A stretch of 41,908 nt of DNA, taken from contig JAHHGX010000032.1 in NCBI GenBank assembly GCA_019359675.1, forward strand, positions 1 to 41,908, given 5' to 3'. Of the stretch, positions 16,467 through 32,354 are shown in pieces. Each line of letters opens with the position of its first letter. Within the stretch, counting starts at the first letter, position 1. The position numbers and the translations under genes are program-made. The notes below the pieces were generated by a model. The model was not told the origin of the DNA, searched no databases, and worked only from the letters and a program-made list of their open reading frames with translations. The DNA comes from Calothrix sp. FI2-JRJ7. GTDB lineage: Bacteria > Cyanobacteriota > Cyanobacteriia > Cyanobacteriales > Nostocaceae.

Positions 16467-16634
16467 GTAGGGTGCGTGAAAGCTATTACAACCAACAAAT
16501 AAAACGCAAAAATAAACTGCTTTCACGCACCACCAACACGCGAGATACATCATAATTTAAAATTGTTGATGGTGCGTCACAGCTACTTTAGTTGTTGCTT
16601 CGCTGTAGATTGTTTAAGCTGTGACGCACCCTAC
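16467..16634. repeat. Two-hairpin MITE-like element B
   Basis: Starts GTAGGGTGCGTGAAAGC and ends GCTGTGACGCACCCTAC, giving terminal inverted repeats like element 1776-1918. The first hairpin pairs GTGCGTGAAAGC with GCTTTCACGCAC. The second pairs GGTGCGTCACAGCT with AGCTGTGACGCACC. Its right end supplies the stop codon (TAG) of the adjacent sensor kinase gene, so insertion may have redefined that gene's 3' end. Confidence 0.8.
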
Positions 16635-17899
16635 AATGGCAAAATAATTTTGAAAGTGGAGCCTTTATCAATTACACTTTTGACACGAATATATCCTCCG
16701 TGTGCTGAAACAATTTGTTGAACAATAGATAACCCTAAACCATATCCACCAGACGAGCGCGCGCGTTTTTTATCAACTCGGTAAAATCGCTCAAAAATGT
16801 GTGGTAAATCAGCTTCTGGAATGCCCATACCAGTATCTATTACTTCAATAACTGCCCAAGAAGACGGAGCGAATAAATTTAACTGAACTTGACCACCTGC
16901 TTTTGTATATTTACATGCGTTAGTTAATAAATTAACTACTGCTTGATGCAGTAAATCTGCATCTCCTAGTACTATCAACCTATTATTTGGTAATTTATAA
17001 GTAAGATTGATATGCTGTGCAATTTCTAGTTTCGTGTATTCGGAAGCTATTTTTAAAAGTTCGCTTTTTAAATCAACTGGTTGCAAAGATTCAGGATTTA
17101 ATCGACCTGCATGACGTGCTAGAATCAACAAGTTATTTATCAGAGTACTCATTGACTTCACAACATCAACGATATTTTCAAACCGTTGACGTTGTACAGA
17201 AGGGTTATTAGAAATTAATCCATACTGAGCATTGCTGCTAATTGCTGATAAGGGTGAGCGTAATTCATGAGAAGCATCAGCAGTAAAGCGTTGTAGTTGG
17301 TCATAGCTTTCACGAATTGGTTGCATTGCTAGTCCTCCTAACCACCAACCAGCTAACCCAATAACTCCTAAAGTTGCTGGAACTGTTAAAAGTAAAACTA
17401 AGCGTAAATGAGCCAAATCATTTTGAGTATATGTTAGTGGTGTTGCAACTTGAAGATAACCAATTAATAAATGATCTTGATATATGGGAAGTGTTAACTC
17501 ACGCAACCAAGCATCTCGAAACGTTCCTCTAACTTGATGATACTCAGGTTTTATTGTATGAAATCCAAGAGTGGTTGTTAAACGCTCAGGTGGAGTGGCG
17601 CCGAAAAATTGTACCATCTGCTTTTGAGTATCATACCAACGCGCGTACACAAGGTCGCTATCTACTGGTGATACGTTACTACCTAATAGTGGCACATTTT
17701 CTAAATCAAGCTGTTGCTTAAGTGTGTCATACTTTGCATTTACTGCCATTACTCTAGATTTTTTGTCTAGTAGTTGGTCGAGATTCCTTAACGAATCTAA
17801 AACTTCTTGGTAATATAGCACTGAGGCAAAACCTACCAAAATACTTCCCATTGTTAAGGTAAACCATAAAGCTAAATTACTACGGCTGCGACTAAACAT
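16631..17899 (-). CDS. rppB: Sensor histidine kinase, RppB-like
   Basis: 422 residues. TM1 (about 10-30), an extracytoplasmic sensor region of about 135 residues, TM2 (about 167-190), then a HisKA dimerisation domain with H211 in DASHELRSPLSAI, and a HATPase domain with N, G1 (DTGMGIPEADL) and G2 (GGYGLGLSIV) boxes. It resembles RppB/NrsS-type kinases of cyanobacteria, which with RppA/NrsR sense redox state or nickel. The paired regulator is at 18515-19192 on the same strand, but an opposite-strand gene fills the space between. The ATG overlaps the start of that gene by 2 nt. The stop codon lies within MITE-like element B. Confidence 0.88.
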   Translation of the reverse strand: MFSRSRSNLALWFTLTMGSILVGFASVLYYQEVLDSLRNLDQLLDKKSRVMAVNAKYDTLKQQLDLENVPLLGSNVSPVDSDLVYARWYDTQKQMVQFFGATPPERLTTTLGFHTIKPEYHQVRGTFRDAWLRELTLPIYQDHLLIGYLQVATPLTYTQNDLAHLRLVLLLTVPATLGVIGLAGWWLGGLAMQPIRESYDQLQRFTADASHELRSPLSAISSNAQYGLISNNPSVQRQRFENIVDVVKSMSTLINNLLILARHAGRLNPESLQPVDLKSELLKIASEYTKLEIAQHINLTYKLPNNRLIVLGDADLLHQAVVNLLTNACKYTKAGGQVQLNLFAPSSWAVIEVIDTGMGIPEADLPHIFERFYRVDKKRARSSGGYGLGLSIVQQIVSAHGGYIRVKSVIDKGSTFKIILPL

Positions 17900-18518
17900 G
17901 ACAACTCATATTTTTATTTCAATGCTCCACTGGTTACAAAAACTACATTATTCTCAATTCACACTTTTATTACTGCCACTGTTTTTAATTAGTTTTGCCA
18001 TAGGTGGTGAATCGTTTACAAACCAGATATTAAGCCGTTCATATAATACCACAAGTAAGCTACAAGCAGACAAACAAACGGTAAAAGCACAATTTGCAGC
18101 CAACGTACTAGTTACGGCAGTTGAAGTTGAAAAAAAGCGAGAGTCAACTGTAGTTGAATATCAAACAGAAAATTCTGTACTCAAAAAAGTAAGATTCGTT
18201 CTACCAGTTACAGAAGTAAATACTGCTAAAACCATAATTGCCCAAGAAATGGGACAGACGCAAGCGAAAGATGTTTTGCAAATTGGTAGAAAAATGCAGG
18301 TACGGTCTGCATTCAAAGTTTTAGGAATTTTGGCTGAGATTGAAAAAAAGCGAGGAGTTACTTTAGTCACGGTTAATACAGCTAGCTCTACACTACAAAA
18401 CTTAGAGTTCGAGTATCCAGTTACAGACTTACCCATAATAAAAGCAACGCTAATTCAACAGCTAGGATTATCTAAAGAAGATATTGCCAGATTTGTAAGT
18501 TATCGAATCAAAAACTAA
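17898..18518 (+). CDS. Hypothetical protein with internal duplication, nested between RppA- and RppB-like genes
   Basis: 206 residues, or 198 if the second Met (MLHWLQKLHY) is used. One N-terminal hydrophobic segment (about 22-38) may be a signal anchor. The rest is two copies of a domain of about 50 residues: VEVEKKRESTVVEYQTENSV continuing to FVLPVTEVNTAKTIIAQEMG, and AEIEKKRGVTLVTVNTASST continuing to FEYPVTDLPIIKATLIQQLG. Both end with a helix-like segment. No family recognised. It lies on the opposite strand to both flanking genes, overlapping the kinase start by 2 nt and the regulator stop by 4 nt. An exported accessory sensor of this two-component system is a reasonable guess, not shown. 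Confidence 0.75.
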   Translation: MTTHIFISMLHWLQKLHYSQFTLLLLPLFLISFAIGGESFTNQILSRSYNTTSKLQADKQTVKAQFAANVLVTAVEVEKKRESTVVEYQTENSVLKKVRFVLPVTEVNTAKTIIAQEMGQTQAKDVLQIGRKMQVRSAFKVLGILAEIEKKRGVTLVTVNTASSTLQNLEFEYPVTDLPIIKATLIQQLGLSKEDIARFVSYRIKN

Positions 18519-19192
18519 TTATCCGGTGCCTTTAAACTATAGCCCATACCATAGACTGTTTTTATCCAATCTGCGGCGCCTACGAGTTGCAAGCGATTCC
18601 GTAACTTACGTACTAATACGGTTAGTGCATTGCTTTCTGGCTCAGAACCCCATTCCCACAATGCTTCTTCAATTTGCTCGCGCGTTAAAATTTGATTTTG
18701 GTGACGGATTAAATACTCTAGTAATTGAGTTTCGCGCGGTGATAACTCTACAGTTTGTTGGTTACGTTCAACCATTAATGTATCTAAGTGCAATTGCAGG
18801 TCAGCAACACGGAGAGTATTTCCCACCCAAGTAGGAGAACGTCTACCCAAAGCACGCACGCGCGCTAAAAGTTCTACTAAGTCAGCAGGTTTAACAAGAT
18901 AGTCATCTGCTCCCGCATCTAAACCCTCTACTTTATCGAGTGTAGTATCCTTCGCAGTAAGCATCAACACAGGCGCCGTTTTGCCAAGAAGTCGATACTG
19001 CCGACAAAGACTTAGCCCGCTAACGGTGGGTAGCATCCAGTCTAAAATCAGCAAATCATATTCCTTTTTAGATAAAAGCCACTGTGCAGTGTCGCCATCT
19101 TCAACGCCATCTACAATATATCCAGCTTCAGATAGTACACCTTGTAATGGCTCTAACTGTTCTGGGTCATCTTCCACAAGTAATATTCGCAT
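18515..19192 (-). CDS. rppA: OmpR-family response regulator, RppA-like
   Basis: 225 residues. Receiver domain with E7/D8/D9, phospho-acceptor D51 in LLILDWMLPTVSGLSL, T79 and K101 in YLVKPADL. The winged-helix domain carries ELSPRETQLLEYL and ends WIKTVYGMGYSLKAPDN. The EALWEWGSEPESNALTVLVR segment and the overall pattern match cyanobacterial RppA/NrsR proteins, which act with RppB/NrsS in redox or Ni2+ responses. The likely kinase partner is at 16631-17899, separated by a reverse-strand gene. It is one of three OmpR-type regulators in the window. Confidence 0.9.
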   Translation of the reverse strand: MRILLVEDDPEQLEPLQGVLSEAGYIVDGVEDGDTAQWLLSKKEYDLLILDWMLPTVSGLSLCRQYRLLGKTAPVLMLTAKDTTLDKVEGLDAGADDYLVKPADLVELLARVRALGRRSPTWVGNTLRVADLQLHLDTLMVERNQQTVELSPRETQLLEYLIRHQNQILTREQIEEALWEWGSEPESNALTVLVRKLRNRLQLVGAADWIKTVYGMGYSLKAPDN

Positions 19193-19736: not shown

Positions 19737-21110
19737 CTATAATATTTCTTTGTTTTGCGGAATAGTAACAGTAAAAGTAGTGCCAACCCCCTCTTGACTT
19801 TCTACATCAATTTGTCCTTTGTGTAAATCTATACATTTTTTTACAACTGCTAATCCCAATCCTGTGCCAAGAATACCCAAGGCATTTTCACCTCGTCGAA
19901 AAGGTTCGTACATTTCCTGTTGAGTTGTTTGAGAAATGCCAATTCCCTGGTCTTTAACTTGAAATATTACAGCTTGATTTTGGCATTTTAATTTAAAATA
20001 AATATTACTGGCTTCAGGTGAATATTTAATAGCGTTGTAAAGTAAATTACTTAAAATAGAATATAATAATTTTTCATCTACCCATGCATTAGTTGCACTA
20101 CCTTCCATCTCAAATTGAATTGCATGGCTAGATTCACTTAAAGTTTGCATATCTTCAACTAAATTGAGGCAAAAACTCTGCATTTCTAATAGTTGAGGCT
20201 TATACTCTAATTTTCCGGCTTCTGCTCTTGCTAATGTCAGAATATCTGAGAGTAATTGAGTCATTAATCGAGCATTAGTTTGGATGCGGTAGAGATTTTT
20301 TAGCCTCTTTTTTTCTACAAATTGTTGAAGACTTTCTTCTAAAAGTTGAGACGACCCCAAAATGATACTTAAAGGTGTACGAAACTCATGAGAAGCCATT
20401 GAGAAAAATTGCAGTTTGAGTTCACCTAATTCTTTTTCTTTTGTAAGTTGGAGTTGTTTCGCTTCTGCTTGTTGACGTTTTACTAATTGCCGATAAAGTT
20501 GAGCATAAACACCAAAAAGCAAAGTAAATGTTAACAAAGTTCCAAAAATTTCAATTAGCATTCTTGACTGAACGTTAGATTGAGATTGTTTTACCCATAC
20601 ATCTAATGCTTGTTCTTCTTGACTTTGCATCTGTTCAATAAGTTGCTGAATTTCATTGCGGTTACGATTATTATCAGCCACTAACTGAGCTTGTTTTTTT
20701 TGTAAAGAGGGGTTTTTTCTATATAATTGAATAGTTTGATTAGATATCACGAGTCTTTGAGCCAGTAAAGATTCTAGTGTGATTAATCTTTGCTTTTGAT
20801 TGGAATCATCTGCAAATAGCTTTTCTAATGTTTTGATTCTTGGCTTGATTTTTTGAATAGCTTGATTATAACGCTGTAATTCTAGGTCATCTCCCAAAAG
20901 TATATAACCGCTTCGTCCAGATTCAGCTTCGTTTAAATGAGCAACGACACCAACTAAAGTCTCAATAACTTCATGAGTCTCTTTTACTTTTACAATAGTT
21001 TCTGCTAATCTGGTAGCATTTTGGTAAGAAATAAAACTAATAAACCCAGTAACCGTCATCGCCATCGCGAAACCGCTTGCAATCCATTTTCCCTCTACAG
21101 ACCATTTCAT
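19737..21110 (-). CDS. CHASE3-domain sensor histidine kinase
   Basis: 457 residues. TM1 (11-29), a helical extracytoplasmic CHASE3-type domain (about 35-180, with NEAESGRSGYILLGDDLEL), TM2 (187-206), coiled linker, HisKA with H241 in SMASHEFRTPLSIILGSSQLL, and HATPase with DQGIGISQTTQQEMYEPF and LGTGLGLAVVKK. The CHASE3 domain commonly senses extracellular or membrane-associated cues of unknown identity. Divergently transcribed from the OmpR-type regulator at 21169-21843 with 58 nt between the starts, so they are very probably a pair. That interval contains one TTCACATTTAAG but no second half-site. Confidence 0.93.
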   Translation of the reverse strand: MKWSVEGKWIASGFAMAMTVTGFISFISYQNATRLAETIVKVKETHEVIETLVGVVAHLNEAESGRSGYILLGDDLELQRYNQAIQKIKPRIKTLEKLFADDSNQKQRLITLESLLAQRLVISNQTIQLYRKNPSLQKKQAQLVADNNRNRNEIQQLIEQMQSQEEQALDVWVKQSQSNVQSRMLIEIFGTLLTFTLLFGVYAQLYRQLVKRQQAEAKQLQLTKEKELGELKLQFFSMASHEFRTPLSIILGSSQLLEESLQQFVEKKRLKNLYRIQTNARLMTQLLSDILTLARAEAGKLEYKPQLLEMQSFCLNLVEDMQTLSESSHAIQFEMEGSATNAWVDEKLLYSILSNLLYNAIKYSPEASNIYFKLKCQNQAVIFQVKDQGIGISQTTQQEMYEPFRRGENALGILGTGLGLAVVKKCIDLHKGQIDVESQEGVGTTFTVTIPQNKEIL

Positions 21111-21168: not shown

Positions 21169-21843
21169 ATGCGTATTTTAGTTGTTGAAGATGATGTGCA
21201 AATAGCGGATATGCTAGTGGAAGCGTTGACGAATCGTCAGTACACGGTAGATGTTGTGCAAGATGGTGAAGCCGCATTAAATTACGTGGAGACATTTGAT
21301 TATAACTTAATTGTGCTAGATATTACGTTGCCTAAGCTAGATGGTATTAAGTTTTGTCAAAAACTGCGCTCACGTAATTTGCCTGTTCCCATTTTAATGC
21401 TTACTGCTCGCGATACTATCGCCGATAAAATTATTGGACTAGATGCAGGCGCCGATGACTATATGGTCAAACCCTTTGACTTAGGAGAATTGATGGCACG
21501 TATCAGGGCACTTTCACGTCGCGGTAACTCTCGACCAGGAATAAATTTATCCTGGGGAAACTTATGTATCAATCAAAGTACCTATGAAGTTTTCTATGAA
21601 GAGCAACTGTTAAACCTGACACCGAAGGAATACGCAATTTTAGAGTTACTCGTTTCTAGCGGTCGTCGTGTTTTGAGCAGACCGGGTATTATCCAGCAAG
21701 TTTGGTCTATAGAAGACTCTCCTACCGAAGACACCGTTAAGTCCCACATCAAAAGTTTACGCCAAAAACTCAGAGAAGTGGGGGCGCCTGACGAGTTTAT
21801 CGAAACAGTTCATGGACTGGGTTATCGTCTGAAGCAACTTTAA
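21169..21843 (+). CDS. OmpR/PhoB-family response regulator, partner of the CHASE3 kinase
   Basis: 224 residues. Receiver with E7/D8/D9, phospho-acceptor D51 in LIVLDITLPKLDG, T79, K101 in YMVKPFDL, then a winged-helix domain with NLTPKEYAILELLV and C-terminal EFIETVHGLGYRLKQL. Phosphorylated family members bind tandem 11-bp direct repeats. Immediately downstream, on the same strand, is an array of four such repeat clusters with promoters and hairpins (21850-22530), followed by ATPase 2. The regulator is therefore the first candidate to control that array. This is inference from position and family behaviour. Confidence 0.94.
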   Translation: MRILVVEDDVQIADMLVEALTNRQYTVDVVQDGEAALNYVETFDYNLIVLDITLPKLDGIKFCQKLRSRNLPVPILMLTARDTIADKIIGLDAGADDYMVKPFDLGELMARIRALSRRGNSRPGINLSWGNLCINQSTYEVFYEEQLLNLTPKEYAILELLVSSGRRVLSRPGIIQQVWSIEDSPTEDTVKSHIKSLRQKLREVGAPDEFIETVHGLGYRLKQL

Positions 21844-21849
21844 CTTTAA

Positions 21850-21893
21850 ACTTCTACTCAATTTCTGCCCGTTTTTTTCCTCTAATCTCAACT
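21850..21893 (+). promoter_or_regulatory. Array unit 1: 11-bp direct repeats
   Basis: Four 11-mers in register: ACTTCTACTCA, ATTTCTGCCCG, TTTTTTTCCTC, TAATCTCAACT. The -10-like AATAAC lies at 21912-21917, 18 nt after the last unit. Same pattern as units 2-4, with unit 3 the closest in sequence. Confidence 0.55.
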
Positions 21894-21923
21894 TTTCAAG
21901 AATAACCTGGAAATAACAGGTTA

Positions 21924-21990
21924 GATTGAACTTCGACAACACACACATCCCACTTTGGTTCTTGCTTAGAGGCGAGAACCAATTTTTATA
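21924..21990 (+). ncRNA. Predicted small RNA 1 of four-unit array
   Basis: Predicted from a -10-like box at 21912-21917 to the T-rich stretch after a hairpin. GGTTCTTGC (21957-21965) pairs with GCGAGAACC (21972-21980) around TTAGAG, then AATTTTTATAATTT. The 5' part is AC-rich (ACAACACACACATCCCAC). Expected length about 62-66 nt. No ORF. Confidence 0.45.
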
Positions 21991-22008
21991 ATTTCAGTCT
22001 CATTAATT

Positions 22009-22052
22009 CAATTTACCCGATTTCTACATAATTTCTACCTTATTTTTAGACT
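22009..22052 (+). promoter_or_regulatory. Array unit 2: 11-bp direct repeats
   Basis: CAATTTACCCG, ATTTCTACATA, ATTTCTACCTT and ATTTTTAGACT follow each other without gaps. TATAAC is at 22074-22079, 21 nt downstream. The period and placement fit an OmpR/PhoB-type activator site replacing a -35 box. Confidence 0.6.
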
Positions 22053-22085
22053 TATTTACAGTTAAACTAAAGTTATAACTGATTT

Positions 22086-22153
22086 AGTTACATTAAGGGA
22101 ACACACGTTTTTTCGGTTCTTGTTTATAAGCAAGAATCTATTTTTATTTTTTT
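22086..22153 (+). ncRNA. Predicted small RNA 2 of four-unit array
   Basis: Strongest hairpin of the array: GGTTCTTGTTTA (22115-22126) is complementary, with G-T wobbles, to TAAGCAAGAATC (22127-22138). It is followed by TATTTTTATTTTTTTG, a textbook T-tract. With a start near 22086 the RNA is about 65 nt and carries GAACACAC in its 5' part, like RNA 1. Confidence 0.5.
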
Positions 22154-22186
22154 GTATATTTTTACAATTTTTTATCTACTTAATTA

Positions 22187-22230
22187 GAATCTACTCAACT
22201 TCTGCCCAATTCCCTCCTATTTTTTCACAA
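22187..22230 (+). promoter_or_regulatory. Array unit 3: 11-bp direct repeats
   Basis: GAATCTACTCA, ACTTCTGCCCA, ATTCCCTCCTA, TTTTTTCACAA in register. -10-like TATACA at 22250-22255, 19 nt after the last unit; a TATAAC at 22269 is an alternative. Closely related to unit 1, about 338 nt away. Confidence 0.55.
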
Positions 22231-22261
22231 TTTTCGAAGAAATTGTAAGTATACAATTTGT

Positions 22262-22332
22262 GTGTCTTTATAACTCAAATTTCACATTCAATGAATTCTT
22301 GTAAATAAAATAAGACAAGAATCGATTTTTTA
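22262..22332 (+). ncRNA. Predicted small RNA 3 of four-unit array
   Basis: ATTCTTG (22295-22301) pairs with CAAGAAT (22316-22322) around a 14-nt A-rich loop, followed by CGATTTTTTAT. The predicted length is about 68 nt. The CAAGAATCGATTTT 3' end is shared with unit 4 in slightly changed form. Confidence 0.45.
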
Positions 22333-22393
22333 TATTTACTATTTTTGAGTCTTTCTGACTGTTTAGTATTAATTTTGCTTTTACACATAAATA

Positions 22394-22437
22394 ATTACTA
22401 CCCGATTACTACCCGATTTTTACCAAATTTATTTACT
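22394..22437 (+). promoter_or_regulatory. Array unit 4: 11-bp direct repeats
   Basis: The clearest repeat of the array: ATTACTACCCG occurs twice in tandem (22394-22404, 22405-22415), followed by ATTTTTACCAA and ATTTATTTACT. TATAAC (within TATAACTGAT, as in unit 2) is at 22452-22457. Confidence 0.65.
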
Positions 22438-22463
22438 TGGCGGCATTAATATATAACTGATAA

Positions 22464-22530
22464 AACTATAGTTCATAACTCTTCTAACACCAAGAATCGA
22501 TTCTTGGCTTGAGTCAGGAATCGATTTTCC
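22464..22530 (+). ncRNA. Predicted small RNA 4 of four-unit array, or leader element of ATPase 2
   Basis: GATTCTTG (22499-22506) pairs with CAGGAATC (22515-22522) around an 8-nt loop, then GATTTTCC. An alternative fold is the perfect 18-nt palindrome CCAAGAATCGATTCTTGG (22490-22507), so two mutually exclusive hairpins share a strand. The T-tract is weaker than in units 1-3, so read-through into the ATPase 2 gene at 22614 is plausible. Confidence 0.45.
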
Positions 22531-22613: not shown

Positions 22614-25487
22614 ATGGCAACAATCAATATAGAGAAATCTGTAACTGGTATGCACCCACTTACTGGTACTAAATGGCATCACATTGATCTGGAAGAAGTT
22701 GCATCTTTATTGCAAACAAATTTACAAAAAGGATTAAAATCTACAGAAATTAGCTCCAGACAGGCATTGTATGGAGTTAATGAATTAACAGCAAAGCCTC
22801 CTACAAGCCCTTGGCTACGGTTAGTTATACAATCTAAGCAACCGTTTCTATATATATTATTAATTGCAGGATTTCTTAATATTGTACTAGGCTATTGGAC
22901 AAATACAGCGGTTATTTTGGGTGTAATAGTTATTAACGTAATTGTTAGTTACGTTCGAGAATTAAAAGCAGAAAAAACAATATCAATTTTAGATCAAGCT
23001 TTAACTACAAAAGCAGTAGTGGTGCGTGACGCTAAAAAGTGTTGCATTCCAGCTAAGGAATTAACACCAGGAGACTTGGTATTATTGGCATCTGGTAATA
23101 AAGTTCCAGCTGATTTACGCTTAATAAGTGCAAATAACTTACAAGTTGACCAATTTGCTTTGACTAGGGAATCTTTACCAGTTAGTAAAAATGTAAAGTT
23201 ATTAGATGTAAACGAAAATACTTCTCTGTCACAGCGAACTAATATAGTTTACGCTGGAAGTTTTGTCACATTTGGGGAAGGTAGCGGTATTGTTATAGAT
23301 ATTGGTAATAATACTCAGCTAGGGCTAATTTCTGAACCAATTCCTGTGCGTCCTAGTTTGGACACACGTTTAACTCGTAAGTTAAACAAATTTAGTCAGA
23401 TTTTAACTTATATTATTTTATCATTAGCTAGTTTTACATTTGTATTTGGAATTGGATTAGGAAGGCCTTGGGGTGAAATGTTTAATGCGGCGGTCGCGTT
23501 AGCTGTGAGTGCTATTCCTTATAGTTTGCCTGTGGTTATCACTATTATTTTCGCGATTGGAATAGAACGAATGGCACGGCGCCATATAATTATTCGTAAA
23601 CTGCCAGCAATAGATTCACTCATAAAGGCCACAGTCATATGTTCCGATAAGACAGGCACATTAACAGAAAATAAAATGACTGTAAAGTATATTTATGCTG
23701 GTGAACAGCAGTATACCGTTGGTGGAATTGGTTATAATCTCAAAGGAAGAATTTGGCAGTCAGGTAACTTGCAACCAGTACATTTAGGTGGGCGTTTTCT
23801 AGATAATAATACAGATTTACGCACAACAATTTTTGATTCTAATGGCAATTCAGATGTAACAACTAACAGCACTGATAACAAATATGAGTCACACATTGCT
23901 TTGAGAGAATGCCTAGTTGCAGGTTTATTATGTAATGACTCTCATCTAGAACCTAAAGAAAATCAATGGGTTGTAGTGGGAGACTCAACAGAAGGTGCTT
24001 TGGTCGTTTCTGCCCGTAAGGCTGGGTTAAGTCAGTCAAAGCAAAGAGAAGCTATGCCTAGACTAAACATCATTCCTTTTGAAGCAAAGTATCAATACAT
24101 GGCAACTTTGCATGGAATGGGCAACGTACAAAGTAATCATAACAAAATTAATAAGACAATTTATATTAAAGGCTCAGTCGAGGCAATTCTGAGTCGTAGC
24201 AAGCAAACGTTGGATAAAAATGGAAATCTTGTTGCCCTAAACAGTACATTTATTGAACAAGAAGCAGAGATGATGGCAAAGCAGGGATTAAGAGTGCTTG
24301 CTTTTGCGAAAAAAATTGTAGAAAGTGACTGTAATTTTATAACTCATGATAGTATTACTTCTGGTTTAATTTTTTTGGGATTACAAGGAATGATTGATCT
24401 ACCTAAACAAGAAGTATTCGCTGCAATTAAATTTTGTCATTATGCGGGAATAAAAGTCCAGATGATTACCGGAGAGCATATTATTACAGCAGTTGCAGTT
24501 GGCTATAAATTAGGATTAGGTCAAAATGGTGAAATAACTGCATTCAAGGGGCAAGAACTCGCAGTTATGAATGATGCAAAATTAGAAGCAGCAGCAGAAA
24601 CTGGGGTAGTGTTTGCTAGAGTTGCACCTGAGCAAAAATTGCATCTTGTTAAGGCATTACAAGCTAAAGGTGAAATTGTAGCGGTGACTGGAAATTCGGT
24701 GAATGATGCTCTGGCATTAAAACTGGCAGATATTGCTATTGCAATGGGGAAGGCAGGGACAGACGTTGCTAAAGAAGCTGCTGATATATTGTTAATGGAT
24801 GATAACTTTGCTTCGATTACAACTGCTGTTGAAGAAGGACGAAGCATTTATCAGAACTTGCACAAAGCTATAGCCTTTATATTACCTGTTTGTAGTAGCG
24901 AGTCAATGACGGTTTTTATTGCTGTACTAGTGAGTTTGCAATTGCCTATCTTACCGATACAAATTCTCTGGTTAAGCATAGTTAACGTTATCATGACAGT
25001 CTCATTAGCATTTGAACCAAAATCTAACGATTTAATGAAACAGCCTCTACGCAATTGGAGCGAAGCTTTGCTGTCAAAAAAATTACTATGGCGCATTTTA
25101 CTAGTCTCTGTACTTAACTGGATTGTGGTTTTTGGGATGTTTGAATGGGCATATCGTACATTTTTAGATGTGGCTGTTGCTCGAACGATGGCTATTCAAG
25201 CTCTAATTCTCGTGAGAATAGTTTATCTGCTAACTATCAGCCAGTGGGGAAAGGCTATTACTGCTATTACTCAAGGTCAAGCGGCGCCAAGTGATGATGC
25301 CTCTTTCTTTGCACTGGGGATTTTTGCCTCAATTATCCTGCAAATAGTCTTTAGCCAGTGGGATGTTATGAATACCTTGTTTGCAACTGCTCCTTTAAAT
25401 TTAATTCAGTTGCTTATCTGTTTTATTCCGGTTTTGCTGATGATTCCGGTAGCTATTTTAGCTAATCGTCTAAATCCTACCGATTAG
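22614..25487 (+). CDS. P-type ATPase 2 with altered catalytic and ion-site motifs
   Basis: 957 residues from the ATG at 22614, chosen because AGGAG lies 5 nt upstream; an ATG at 22578 has no such site. Homologous to ATPase 1 throughout, with the phosphorylation Asp (D345 in CSDKTGTLT) kept. Several other signature residues are changed: TGES is TRES (R185), the M4 PEGLP is PYSLP (no Glu at 303), TGD is TGE (E621) and TGDGVND is TGNSVND (N694, S695), and M6 is one residue shorter. A nucleotide-domain insert of about 30 polar residues follows [11 protein letters not shown]. The frame is open from end to end, which argues against simple decay. Best read as a possible pseudo-pump or a strongly re-tuned pump. 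It follows the four-unit array. Confidence 0.85.
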
Positions 25488-30995: not shown

Positions 30996-31139
30996 TAAAT
31001 ACACTTGTTTTACCTAAATGAATAAATTTTGGCGCCGACTGCCTCATATAGCAAGTAAACATGTAGAATAATTATTCAGATTGATGTCTGGGCAATGGAG
31101 CTTGCCATTAACCGCCATTACATATAATAAAAGGCTGAT

Positions 31140-31247
31140 AGCTCCTACTTTCCTCTACTTGTAGCAGGATAGTAGGGCTGTGTGTAAACATTACCTGACT
31201 CTCTTGTTAGCAAGTTTCTCTACAACCATGATTTTGAGAGTTAGGTC
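31140..31247 (+). promoter_or_regulatory. Structured mRNA leader that can sequester the ribosome-binding region
   Basis: Two hairpins precede the ATG at 31248. The first (31140-31179) pairs AGCTCCTACTTTCCTCTAC with GTAGCAGGATAGTAGGGCT through bulges. The second pairs ACCTGACTCTC (31193-31203) with GAGAGTTAGGT (31236-31246), ending one base before the start codon, with an inner CTTG/CAAG stem at 31203-31214. The second would hide the initiation region. It matches no riboswitch class that I can recognise. Confidence 0.5.
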
Positions 31248-32354
31248 ATGTTACTAAGTGTAATTTTGATTTTATTAGCGGGTTTTTTTGTTGGTCAGAT
31301 AGCGCGACGGTTTAGCGCTCCTGGGCTGATTGGTATGATTTTAGCTGGTATAATGCTTGGTCCTCAAGTCGCTAATATCATCCATCCAGATATTACTATC
31401 CGCGCAGAGGGCTACGATATCTTTGTGCCGCCACTTTCGGTCACGGTTGGTATGATACTAGCGTTTATCTGTATTTGCGTACTGATTTACTTTATAGATC
31501 ATGCATCAACTATTATTCAAGCATCACACGTTATCAAGAGTGCTAGTGATGAATTAAACCGTGCAATTGAGCGATTGTTTCCCCAAAGAATTGGACATAG
31601 CATAGCCGATAATCAATCTATTATAGAAATACCAGCAAACTTTGAAGAAGAAGCTTACCCAATCAAAGCTACTAGAAATGGTTATATGCAGGGAATTGAT
31701 GACGAGGAATTAATACAGATTGCTTGTCAGTATAATATAATAGTAAAAATTTTAACTCGACCGGGAAAGTTTGTTGTTAAAGGCGCCAGTTTGGTTAAAA
31801 TTTTTCCTGGGGAACGTGTAAATCATAAATTAACAGAAAAAATTAACGATACGTTTCTTTTTGGTAAAGAACGTACCGAACAGCAAGATGTAGAATTCCC
31901 TATTAATCAGCTAGTTGAAATTGCGCTTCGTGCTATTTCTCCTGGTATAAACGACCCATTTACTACAATTCGCTGTATCGACAGACTCAGTGCTGGACTT
32001 TCTAATTTTGCTCAAAGAGATATTCCTTCTCCTTACCGCTACGATAAAAACAACAATTTGCGTGTAATTGCGGAATCAGTAACATTTGCAGGGTTAACGG
32101 ATGCAGCTTTCAATCAAATTCGCCAATATAGTACTTCAGATGTGGCAGTAACGATTCGCTTGTTAGAAGCTATAACTTGTATCGCTACTTTTACGCATCA
32201 CCCCAAACAAAAAGAAGTACTACGGCGCCATGCTGATATGATTTTACAAGGTAGCAGTGAACAAGTTTCTTGTAAAGAGGACTGTAAGGATATAGAACAT
32301 CAGTACAACATAGCAGTACAAATATTAACGCGAAACCAATATTTTTTAAGCTAA
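31248..32354 (+). CDS. Fusion: antiporter N-terminus joined to DUF2254 C-terminal part
   Basis: 368 residues. Residues 1 to about 50 (MLLSVILILLAGFFVGQIAR, RFSAPGLIGMILAGIMLGPQ) are the start of a CPA-type cation/proton antiporter. From about residue 50 the sequence is DUF2254 (TIRAEGYDIFVPPLSVTVG, FIDHASTIIQASHVI, ALRAISPGINDPFTTIRCID), missing that family's first 100 or so residues and first membrane helices. The junction is in frame. The result has three membrane helices and a soluble C-terminal domain. It may be a recombination by-product or a functional chimera; the open frame and upstream structured leader keep the second option alive. Confidence 0.8.
   Translation: MLLSVILILLAGFFVGQIARRFSAPGLIGMILAGIMLGPQVANIIHPDITIRAEGYDIFVPPLSVTVGMILAFICICVLIYFIDHASTIIQASHVIKSASDELNRAIERLFPQRIGHSIADNQSIIEIPANFEEEAYPIKATRNGYMQGIDDEELIQIACQYNIIVKILTRPGKFVVKGASLVKIFPGERVNHKLTEKINDTFLFGKERTEQQDVEFPINQLVEIALRAISPGINDPFTTIRCIDRLSAGLSNFAQRDIPSPYRYDKNNNLRVIAESVTFAGLTDAAFNQIRQYSTSDVAVTIRLLEAITCIATFTHHPKQKEVLRRHADMILQGSSEQVSCKEDCKDIEHQYNIAVQILTRNQYFLS

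Follow-up and report, generated by a model that had tools for sequence, protein, structure and literature searches.

The analysed window, a stretch of 41,908 bp from Calothrix sp. FI2-JRJ7 (JAHHGX010000032.1), contains a gene for an OmpR-family response regulator (RR; 21169..21843, + strand; Response_reg and Trans_reg_C domains), for which the best NCBIfam model was RppA (227.7 bits, under the model cutoff of 250). Divergent from it lies the gene for a CHASE3 sensor histidine kinase (HK; 19737..21110, - strand; CHASE3, HisKA, and HATPase_c domains), the presumed partner of the RR, and the downstream neighbour is a P-type cation ATPase gene (22614..25487, + strand; ORF from 22578). The 770-bp gap between the RR and ATPase genes holds four units, all on one strand, where a preliminary description of this DNA had placed them. 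Within each unit, a triple 11-bp operator and a -10 position come first, followed by the 5′ part of the RNA and then by a hairpin with a T-rich tail; the RR is the predicted activator of the array. A second kinase/RR pair is located at 16631-19192, and its RR (18515-19192) just passes the RppA model (250.7 vs 250). At the gathering threshold, Rfam gave one match in the window, an unrelated fluoride riboswitch at 31082-31154 (45.6 bits), which lies approximately 90 bp upstream of a DUF2254 membrane-protein gene at 31248.

Architecture of the four units

The operators of units 1 to 4 occupy 21851..21883, 22010..22042, 22188..22220, and 22395..22427 (+ strand), with the repeat consensus TTTCTACCCGA in three copies at 11 bp. 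The 11-bp direct repeats reported earlier are real, as the self-match peaked at lag 11 in every operator (0.55, 0.58, 0.48, and 0.70 in units 1 to 4, respectively), and in unit 3 lag 10 was almost equal (0.47). From 15 regions downstream of RR genes, all in other genera, we derived a 33-bp weight matrix and scanned both strands of the 41,908 bp with it. The four best distinct sites were the four operators, beginning at 22395 (score 34.1), 22010 (30.0), 21851 (24.5), and 22188 (16.5), and the best unrelated site scored 9.2. The maxima of 60 shuffles had a mean of 7.0 (sd 3.2) and reached 18.1; therefore, the unit 3 operator, the weakest of the four, taken alone falls inside the shuffle range, and those of units 1, 2, and 4 fall outside it. 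That a matrix from other genera fits all four operators means that the 11-bp phasing is kept in relatives, and the loss of phasing that the preliminary description had named as a refutation did not occur.

A TAnnnT hexamer was found 20 nt past the operator in unit 1 (TAACCT, 21903..21908; box and spacing identical in L024 and L025) and in unit 4 (TAATAT, 22447..22452), and 21 nt past it in unit 2 (TAAACT, 22063..22068). The corresponding position of unit 3 (22239..22244) reads GAAATT, with no TAnnnT in FI2-JRJ7 and TAAATT in several relatives, and may have been weakened in the FI2-JRJ7 genome. Among other-genus operators, 15 of 17 had TAnnnT at 20 nt, compared with approximately 4% expected per position. 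The hexamers proposed earlier as -10 boxes do exist, but upstream of each lies this fixed-spacing -10 position, which reads TAnnnT in units 1, 2, and 4; both sets are candidates for driving transcription. A sigma-70 consensus scan of the window returned three promoter-like sites (4.6 expected), none of them at the proposed -10 boxes, and so gave no promoter excess, a result that counts against the array reading.

If transcription starts 7 nt past the TAnnnT-position box, the presumed RNAs would be 72 (21915..21986), 76 (22075..22150), 80 (22252..22331), and 72 nt (22459..22530) long for units 1 to 4, respectively, rather than the 62–68 nt estimated before. Their hairpins lie at 21955-21982, 22115-22138, approximately 22290-22327, and 22493-22528, and the fold z-scores were -3.3, -3.2, -0.77, and -4.25. 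Three terminator-like sites were found, as against 0.3 expected; they lie in units 1, 2, and 4 and not in unit 3. In the predicted folds, the 5′ part was mostly unpaired in unit 4, largely unpaired in unit 1, and partly paired in units 2 and 3. The sequence AUAACUC is kept in units 3 and 4, the latter carrying AUAACUCUUCUAACACC, and units 1 and 2 have other sequences in their 5′ parts.

The preliminary description took units 1/3 and 2/4 to be most alike and proposed that a pair had been duplicated. The operators of units 1 and 3 are indeed the most similar (73%), but units 1/4 tie with units 2/4 (67%), and the hairpins pair units 1 with 2 (77%) and 3 with 4 (74%). The 5′ parts are 34–44% identical in every unit pair. 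The stated likeness is thus only partly borne out, and the duplication scheme needs correction.

Conservation of the array within the genus

The array was found in all seven genomes of the genus (Dulcicalothrix/Calothrix) that were searched, with four units each, except for three in Calothrix sp. NIES-4105. Genomes G002 to G006 are Calothrix sp. PCC 7716, Calothrix sp. NIES-4105, Dulcicalothrix desertica PCC 7102, Calothrix sp. PCC 7103, and Calothrix sp. HK-06, respectively. Between the window and the most diverged genus member (G001), identities, with gaps scored as differences, were 9–31% in the spacers, 69–84% in the operators, 55–73% in the 5′ parts, and 59–91% in the hairpins.

These comparisons bear on whether some units are decaying duplicates, with functional RNA coming from one or two only (unit 4, perhaps unit 1 or 2). 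In FI2-JRJ7, unit 3 lacks the TAnnnT box, and both its operator and its fold are weak; unit 4 of PCC 7103 (G005) has a hairpin without 24 bases, one arm being lost; and NIES-4105 is without unit 4. The most diverged genus member nevertheless has all four units, kept while the spacers were randomised, and we regard partial decay as unlikely.

Two extra lone copies were present in D. desertica: the first adjoins a different RR gene approximately 4 kb upstream, and the second is on a separate contig. In this species, a lone RNA unit is divergent from the counterpart of RR 18515-19192 (L010/L089). A pattern scan of contigs returned 13 stretches, of which six were the genus array or a near-array (L046, L047, L048, L054, L056, and L057) and one a lone unit (L049). 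By eye, no operator was seen in L050, L051, and L055, the three that were inspected among the other six stretches (these three and L045, L052, and L053). Short DNA matches at L008, L009, L013, and L014 were judged by eye to be chance, and at L011 and L012 the match is to the complementary strand of a hairpin within the array. Three isolated units with TTCTTG-type hairpins were observed: L049:4711-4813 (- strand), with no matrix operator and upstream of a receiver-domain gene, and L099:1501-1598 and L100:1501-1591 (- strand), with weak operators (16.7 and 16.9) and other neighbours. These are possibly RNA copies under other control. Approximately 20 kb from the NIES-4105 array, a GATTCTTG/CAAGAATC hairpin with a T run and no visible operator occurs at L051:7235-7271 (- strand).

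Single units in other genera

We used two models, R1, built from 11 other-genus sequences and without any of the genus, and R2, trained on array units. R1 matched 27 of 192 family genomes (16 beyond its 11 training genomes) in 9 of 56 genera, and R2 matched 12 further family genomes (7 of the genus; 5 other genera); under stricter filters, with approximately 20 candidates scored in each, the remaining 153 matched neither. An order-wide R1 search matched none of 195 genomes, and carries little weight as it included no known positive. Within the window, the best R1 match was unit 4 (E 0.0084), which ties the array to the single units. Units 1 to 3 were not listed by R1 up to E 5, and what links them to the single units is therefore their position, their operator and promoter, and model R2, which scored them at 84.9 (with unit 1 itself in its training set), 70.5, and 74.3 bits, respectively.

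Of 30 fetched R1 loci, 23 adjoin an RR homologue, six are divergent from an HK homologue, and one (L079) is neither; an HK homologue adjoins the RR in eight of the 23, within flanks of 1.5 kb. Some R1-matched genomes have two copies, and one has four. In this four-unit genome (G209), the units form two pairs, at about 2.145 Mb and about 7.107 Mb (L073, G209:C6:7106862-7108398), and one of the four precedes a penicillin-binding-protein-like gene (L132).

Operators scoring >12 in the 330 nt past the RR stop were present in 24 of 30 RR loci, namely 7/7 in the genus and 17/23 outside it; the 23 other-genus loci are the best of 145 genomes searched, and 15 of the 17 are the matrix's own training set. 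In 16 of these 17, the strong operator lies no more than 2 bases from the RR stop codon (+40 in L023). An AACUCC-type core was found in 16 of the 17. Its position is +36 to +40 in 12 loci and +77 to +144 in the other four (L031, L033, L036, and L040), where the RNA must be longer or start elsewhere. The core consensus in other genera is AAUAACUCCUYURACACC, and the hairpin sequences vary, being of the TTCTCCAAA/TTTGGAGAA or GATTCTTG/CAAGAATC types. One unit with such a core stands behind the RR gene in 16 of the 23 other-genus RR loci, and the combination of operator, core, and hairpin behind the RR gene was found in these 16 and in all seven genus arrays. One locus, L022 (G073), keeps the operator with no recognisable RNA. 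Six other-genus RR loci have no operator, four forming one fully supported RR clade and the others being L026 and L034. In the RR tree, this operator-less clade nests among operator-bearing RRs, which do not form one clade; thus, losses must be assumed. The co-occurrence of operator, -10 box, core, hairpin, and RR gene in other genera supports the earlier claim of a small-RNA array under the neighbouring OmpR-type regulator.

The preliminary description also offered an alternative, in which the hairpins are serial attenuators in a complex RR-regulated leader, stopping transcription or letting it into the ATPase gene. Genomic context gives this some footing: an ATPase homologue lies behind the array in 6/7 genus genomes (58–60% identity in G001), behind the unit in G024 and G095, and one gene further in G150, and the gene that follows one G209 unit looks, by eye, similar to that for the class A penicillin-binding protein in L131. 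However, every unit has its own operator, units 1, 2, and 4 have their own TAnnnT box, and several other genera have a different next gene with its own operator. In NIES-4105, units 1 to 3 are followed by a 93-residue DUF2254 remnant (79.6% identity) and an opposite-strand invertase, and no match to the ATPase was found in the flanks examined behind the array. Because three units persist there with no ATPase behind them, we disfavour the attenuator model and consider it very improbable. The P-type ATPase gene is a neighbour of the array and at most a candidate member of the system.

Covariation of the hairpin

Hairpin pairing was kept through compensatory changes in three alignments, and the loss of pairing in relatives that had been named as grounds for refutation did not occur. 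In A7 (32 rows), 94.2% of cells were paired, with compensatory changes in 7/12 pairs (23 cells), as against ≤5 pairs and ≤9 cells in controls with slid partners. In A8 (33 rows), 95.3% of cells were paired, with compensatory changes in 6/11 pairs (32 cells; slid controls ≤3 pairs and ≤6 cells). A8 comprises 26 array units, two lone D. desertica copies, and, from other genera, three single units and two lone copies. A7 and A8 had each been fitted to the models and their related rows inflate the cell counts, and A7 retains one row (L062:1457-1554:+) from the opposite strand of a true match. A5, an 11-row MAFFT alignment on which the structure was named, agrees, with compensatory changes in 4/12 pairs (slid ≤1).

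This covariation speaks to a further alternative, namely that the array is an operator decoy, in which repeated RR sites titrate the RR and the hairpins merely insulate against transcription. Strong conservation of the operators, within the genus and across genera, speaks for this design, but a decoy does not account well for hairpin pairing preserved through compensatory changes, a 5′ core preserved across genera, or -10 spacing preserved in 15/17 other-genus loci. We consider a decoy highly improbable.

Regulon and target prediction

The regulon was scanned with a 22-bp operator pattern allowing ≤3 mismatches, the reversed pattern serving as a control. In five genomes (approximately 55 Mb), ten matches were found, some in overlapping registers, nine of them at the RR/RNA locus, and the reversed control gave none. 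The pattern recovers only unit 4 among the window operators and is therefore insensitive, so that weak sites elsewhere are possible. Six other genomes gave 13 matches vs two for the reversed control. Three of the 13 were at RR-linked units and two at other G209 units (one before a gene resembling that of L131). Five precede a gene whose 73-74 aa product matches no Pfam family and which is followed in G158 and G116 by a penicillin-binding-protein gene; two, representing one site, are in G089, where a class A penicillin-binding-protein gene starts approximately 330-420 bp further downstream; and one precedes an unrelated small gene in G116. Pfam assigned the penicillin-binding protein to class B in G158 (L129) and class A in G089 (L131), and those of G116 and G209 were called by similarity only. 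These sites suggest an envelope or peptidoglycan function for the RR regulon.

The 73-74 aa protein (MSxFxVNIxNxVLT...; L058:1061-1279 (-), L136, L129, and L130) has no Pfam or NCBIfam match and is encoded in 16 of the 30 R1 loci. Where looked at, its gene has its own RR operator approximately 80 nt upstream of the start.

For targets, duplex energies were computed for the four 5′ parts against 30 start regions in the window. The best value, -23.5, paired the unit 1 5′ part with the kinase gene at 16631-17899, and was rejected, being equalled by 24 of 1000 shuffles and by 21 of 4186 60-nt windows (windows covering the complement of unit 1 itself are counted among these). For the single-copy core and the ATPase leaders of G024 and G095, 46 and 187 of 500 shuffles, respectively, paired as well, and this pairing was likewise rejected. 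Overall, target prediction in the window start regions and these two leaders gave nothing beyond chance.

Discussion

We consider it highly probable that this locus holds four small-RNA genes in tandem, which together serve the neighbouring two-component system as an output arm. The units, their conservation, the covariation, and the linkage to the RR are read directly from the genomes. The transcription, RR phosphorylation, RR binding, and target base pairing that we infer from them would proceed as follows. The CHASE3 kinase would phosphorylate the RR, which would then occupy the three 11-bp repeats in front of every -10 box and activate a short transcript ending at a TTCTTG/CAAGAA-type hairpin. 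The matrix and the RR loci link a conserved operator to the RR, and the RNAs may depend on it. Ancestrally, there was probably just one such gene, immediately following the RR gene, and it was copied to four in this clade; after copying, the 5′ parts would have diverged, with the operator, the promoter, and the hairpin all retained. The unpaired 5′ part might pair with mRNAs, which we rate as possible and somewhat doubtful; through its CU-rich core (AACUCC) it could mask Shine-Dalgarno sequences and thereby block translation.

A broader reading, put forward tentatively, is that a cyanobacterial two-component system for envelope stress could have an undescribed sRNA family among its main direct outputs. 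In Dulcicalothrix/Calothrix, one signal would then fire four RNAs with diverged pairing regions, so that one regulator would control several target sets by RNA, convergent with LhrC and the csRNAs. The most fitting description of the units is a new sRNA family, of an established type, that was tandem-expanded in one clade. It offers an sRNA family with its own candidate regulator and operator, open to test, and relatives with one vs three or four diverged copies in which to examine how sRNA duplication alters targets. If the envelope link is true, OmpR-type regulators with multicopy sRNAs, recurring in unrelated bacteria, would point to a general design.

Comparison with known systems

Rfam contains both the LhrC family and Yfr1. 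Searched up to E 5, the array and five loci of relatives (L007, L023, L024, L025, and L027) gave two chance matches, both to other families, and no match to the sequence or structure of LhrC was obtained in the window at the gathering threshold or in these loci up to E 5. No paper on this RR-coupled sRNA family was apparent among the open-licence PMC papers listed.

Yfr1, also a short RNA of cyanobacteria, carries the motif CACUCCUCACACC, which contains CUCCU and is presumably unpaired, and was present in every genome of the study concerned (PMC4734099, in part). By eye, this motif is absent from the unit alignments, which have no Rfam match; the motif of the units is AACUCCUYURACACC-like and tied to the RR gene. 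Table 1 of the same study lists unnamed short sRNAs of Nostoc 7120 by position, one of which could be the RR-coupled RNA (PMC4734099, in part).

NsiR1 of Nostoc sp. PCC 7120, an sRNA of approximately 60 nt, has 12 tandem copies upstream of hetF with individual DIF1 promoters, and its diverged copies have different targets (PMC9045159, in part). The array likewise consists of tandem diverged copies in a heterocyst-forming cyanobacterium. Unlike NsiR1, it lies behind an RR gene and carries RR operators, and its neighbours are the RR, HK, and P-type ATPase genes rather than hetF. PsrR1 of Synechocystis acts in a feed-forward loop with the response regulator RpaB on photosystem I targets (PMC6202907, in part); the array would similarly join a cyanobacterial sRNA and a response regulator in a loop, but with a different regulator, photosystem I being the target of PsrR1.

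The csRNAs of streptococci are controlled by CiaRH through CiaR repeats, TTTAAG-N5-TTTAAG, with an 11-bp period, and the strongest CiaR promoters (5/15 in S. pneumoniae) drive sRNAs (PMC8186281, in part). The array repeats, also at 11 bp, read TTTCTACCCGA in three copies instead of the CiaR site, and form one tandem array beside the RR gene with no Rfam match. LhrC1-5 of Listeria is a multicopy sRNA that needs the LisRK two-component system and is induced by cell-envelope stress, and its CU-rich single-stranded sites are predicted to block a Shine-Dalgarno sequence (PMC4132741, in part). An array unit has one hairpin, whereas LhrC has two, and it adjoins the RR gene, is cyanobacterial, and has no Rfam match. 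With no claim of homology, the array would by its proposed action come closest to csRNA/CiaRH and LhrC/LisRK, the latter for being multicopy, linked to a two-component system, and equipped with CU-rich sites.
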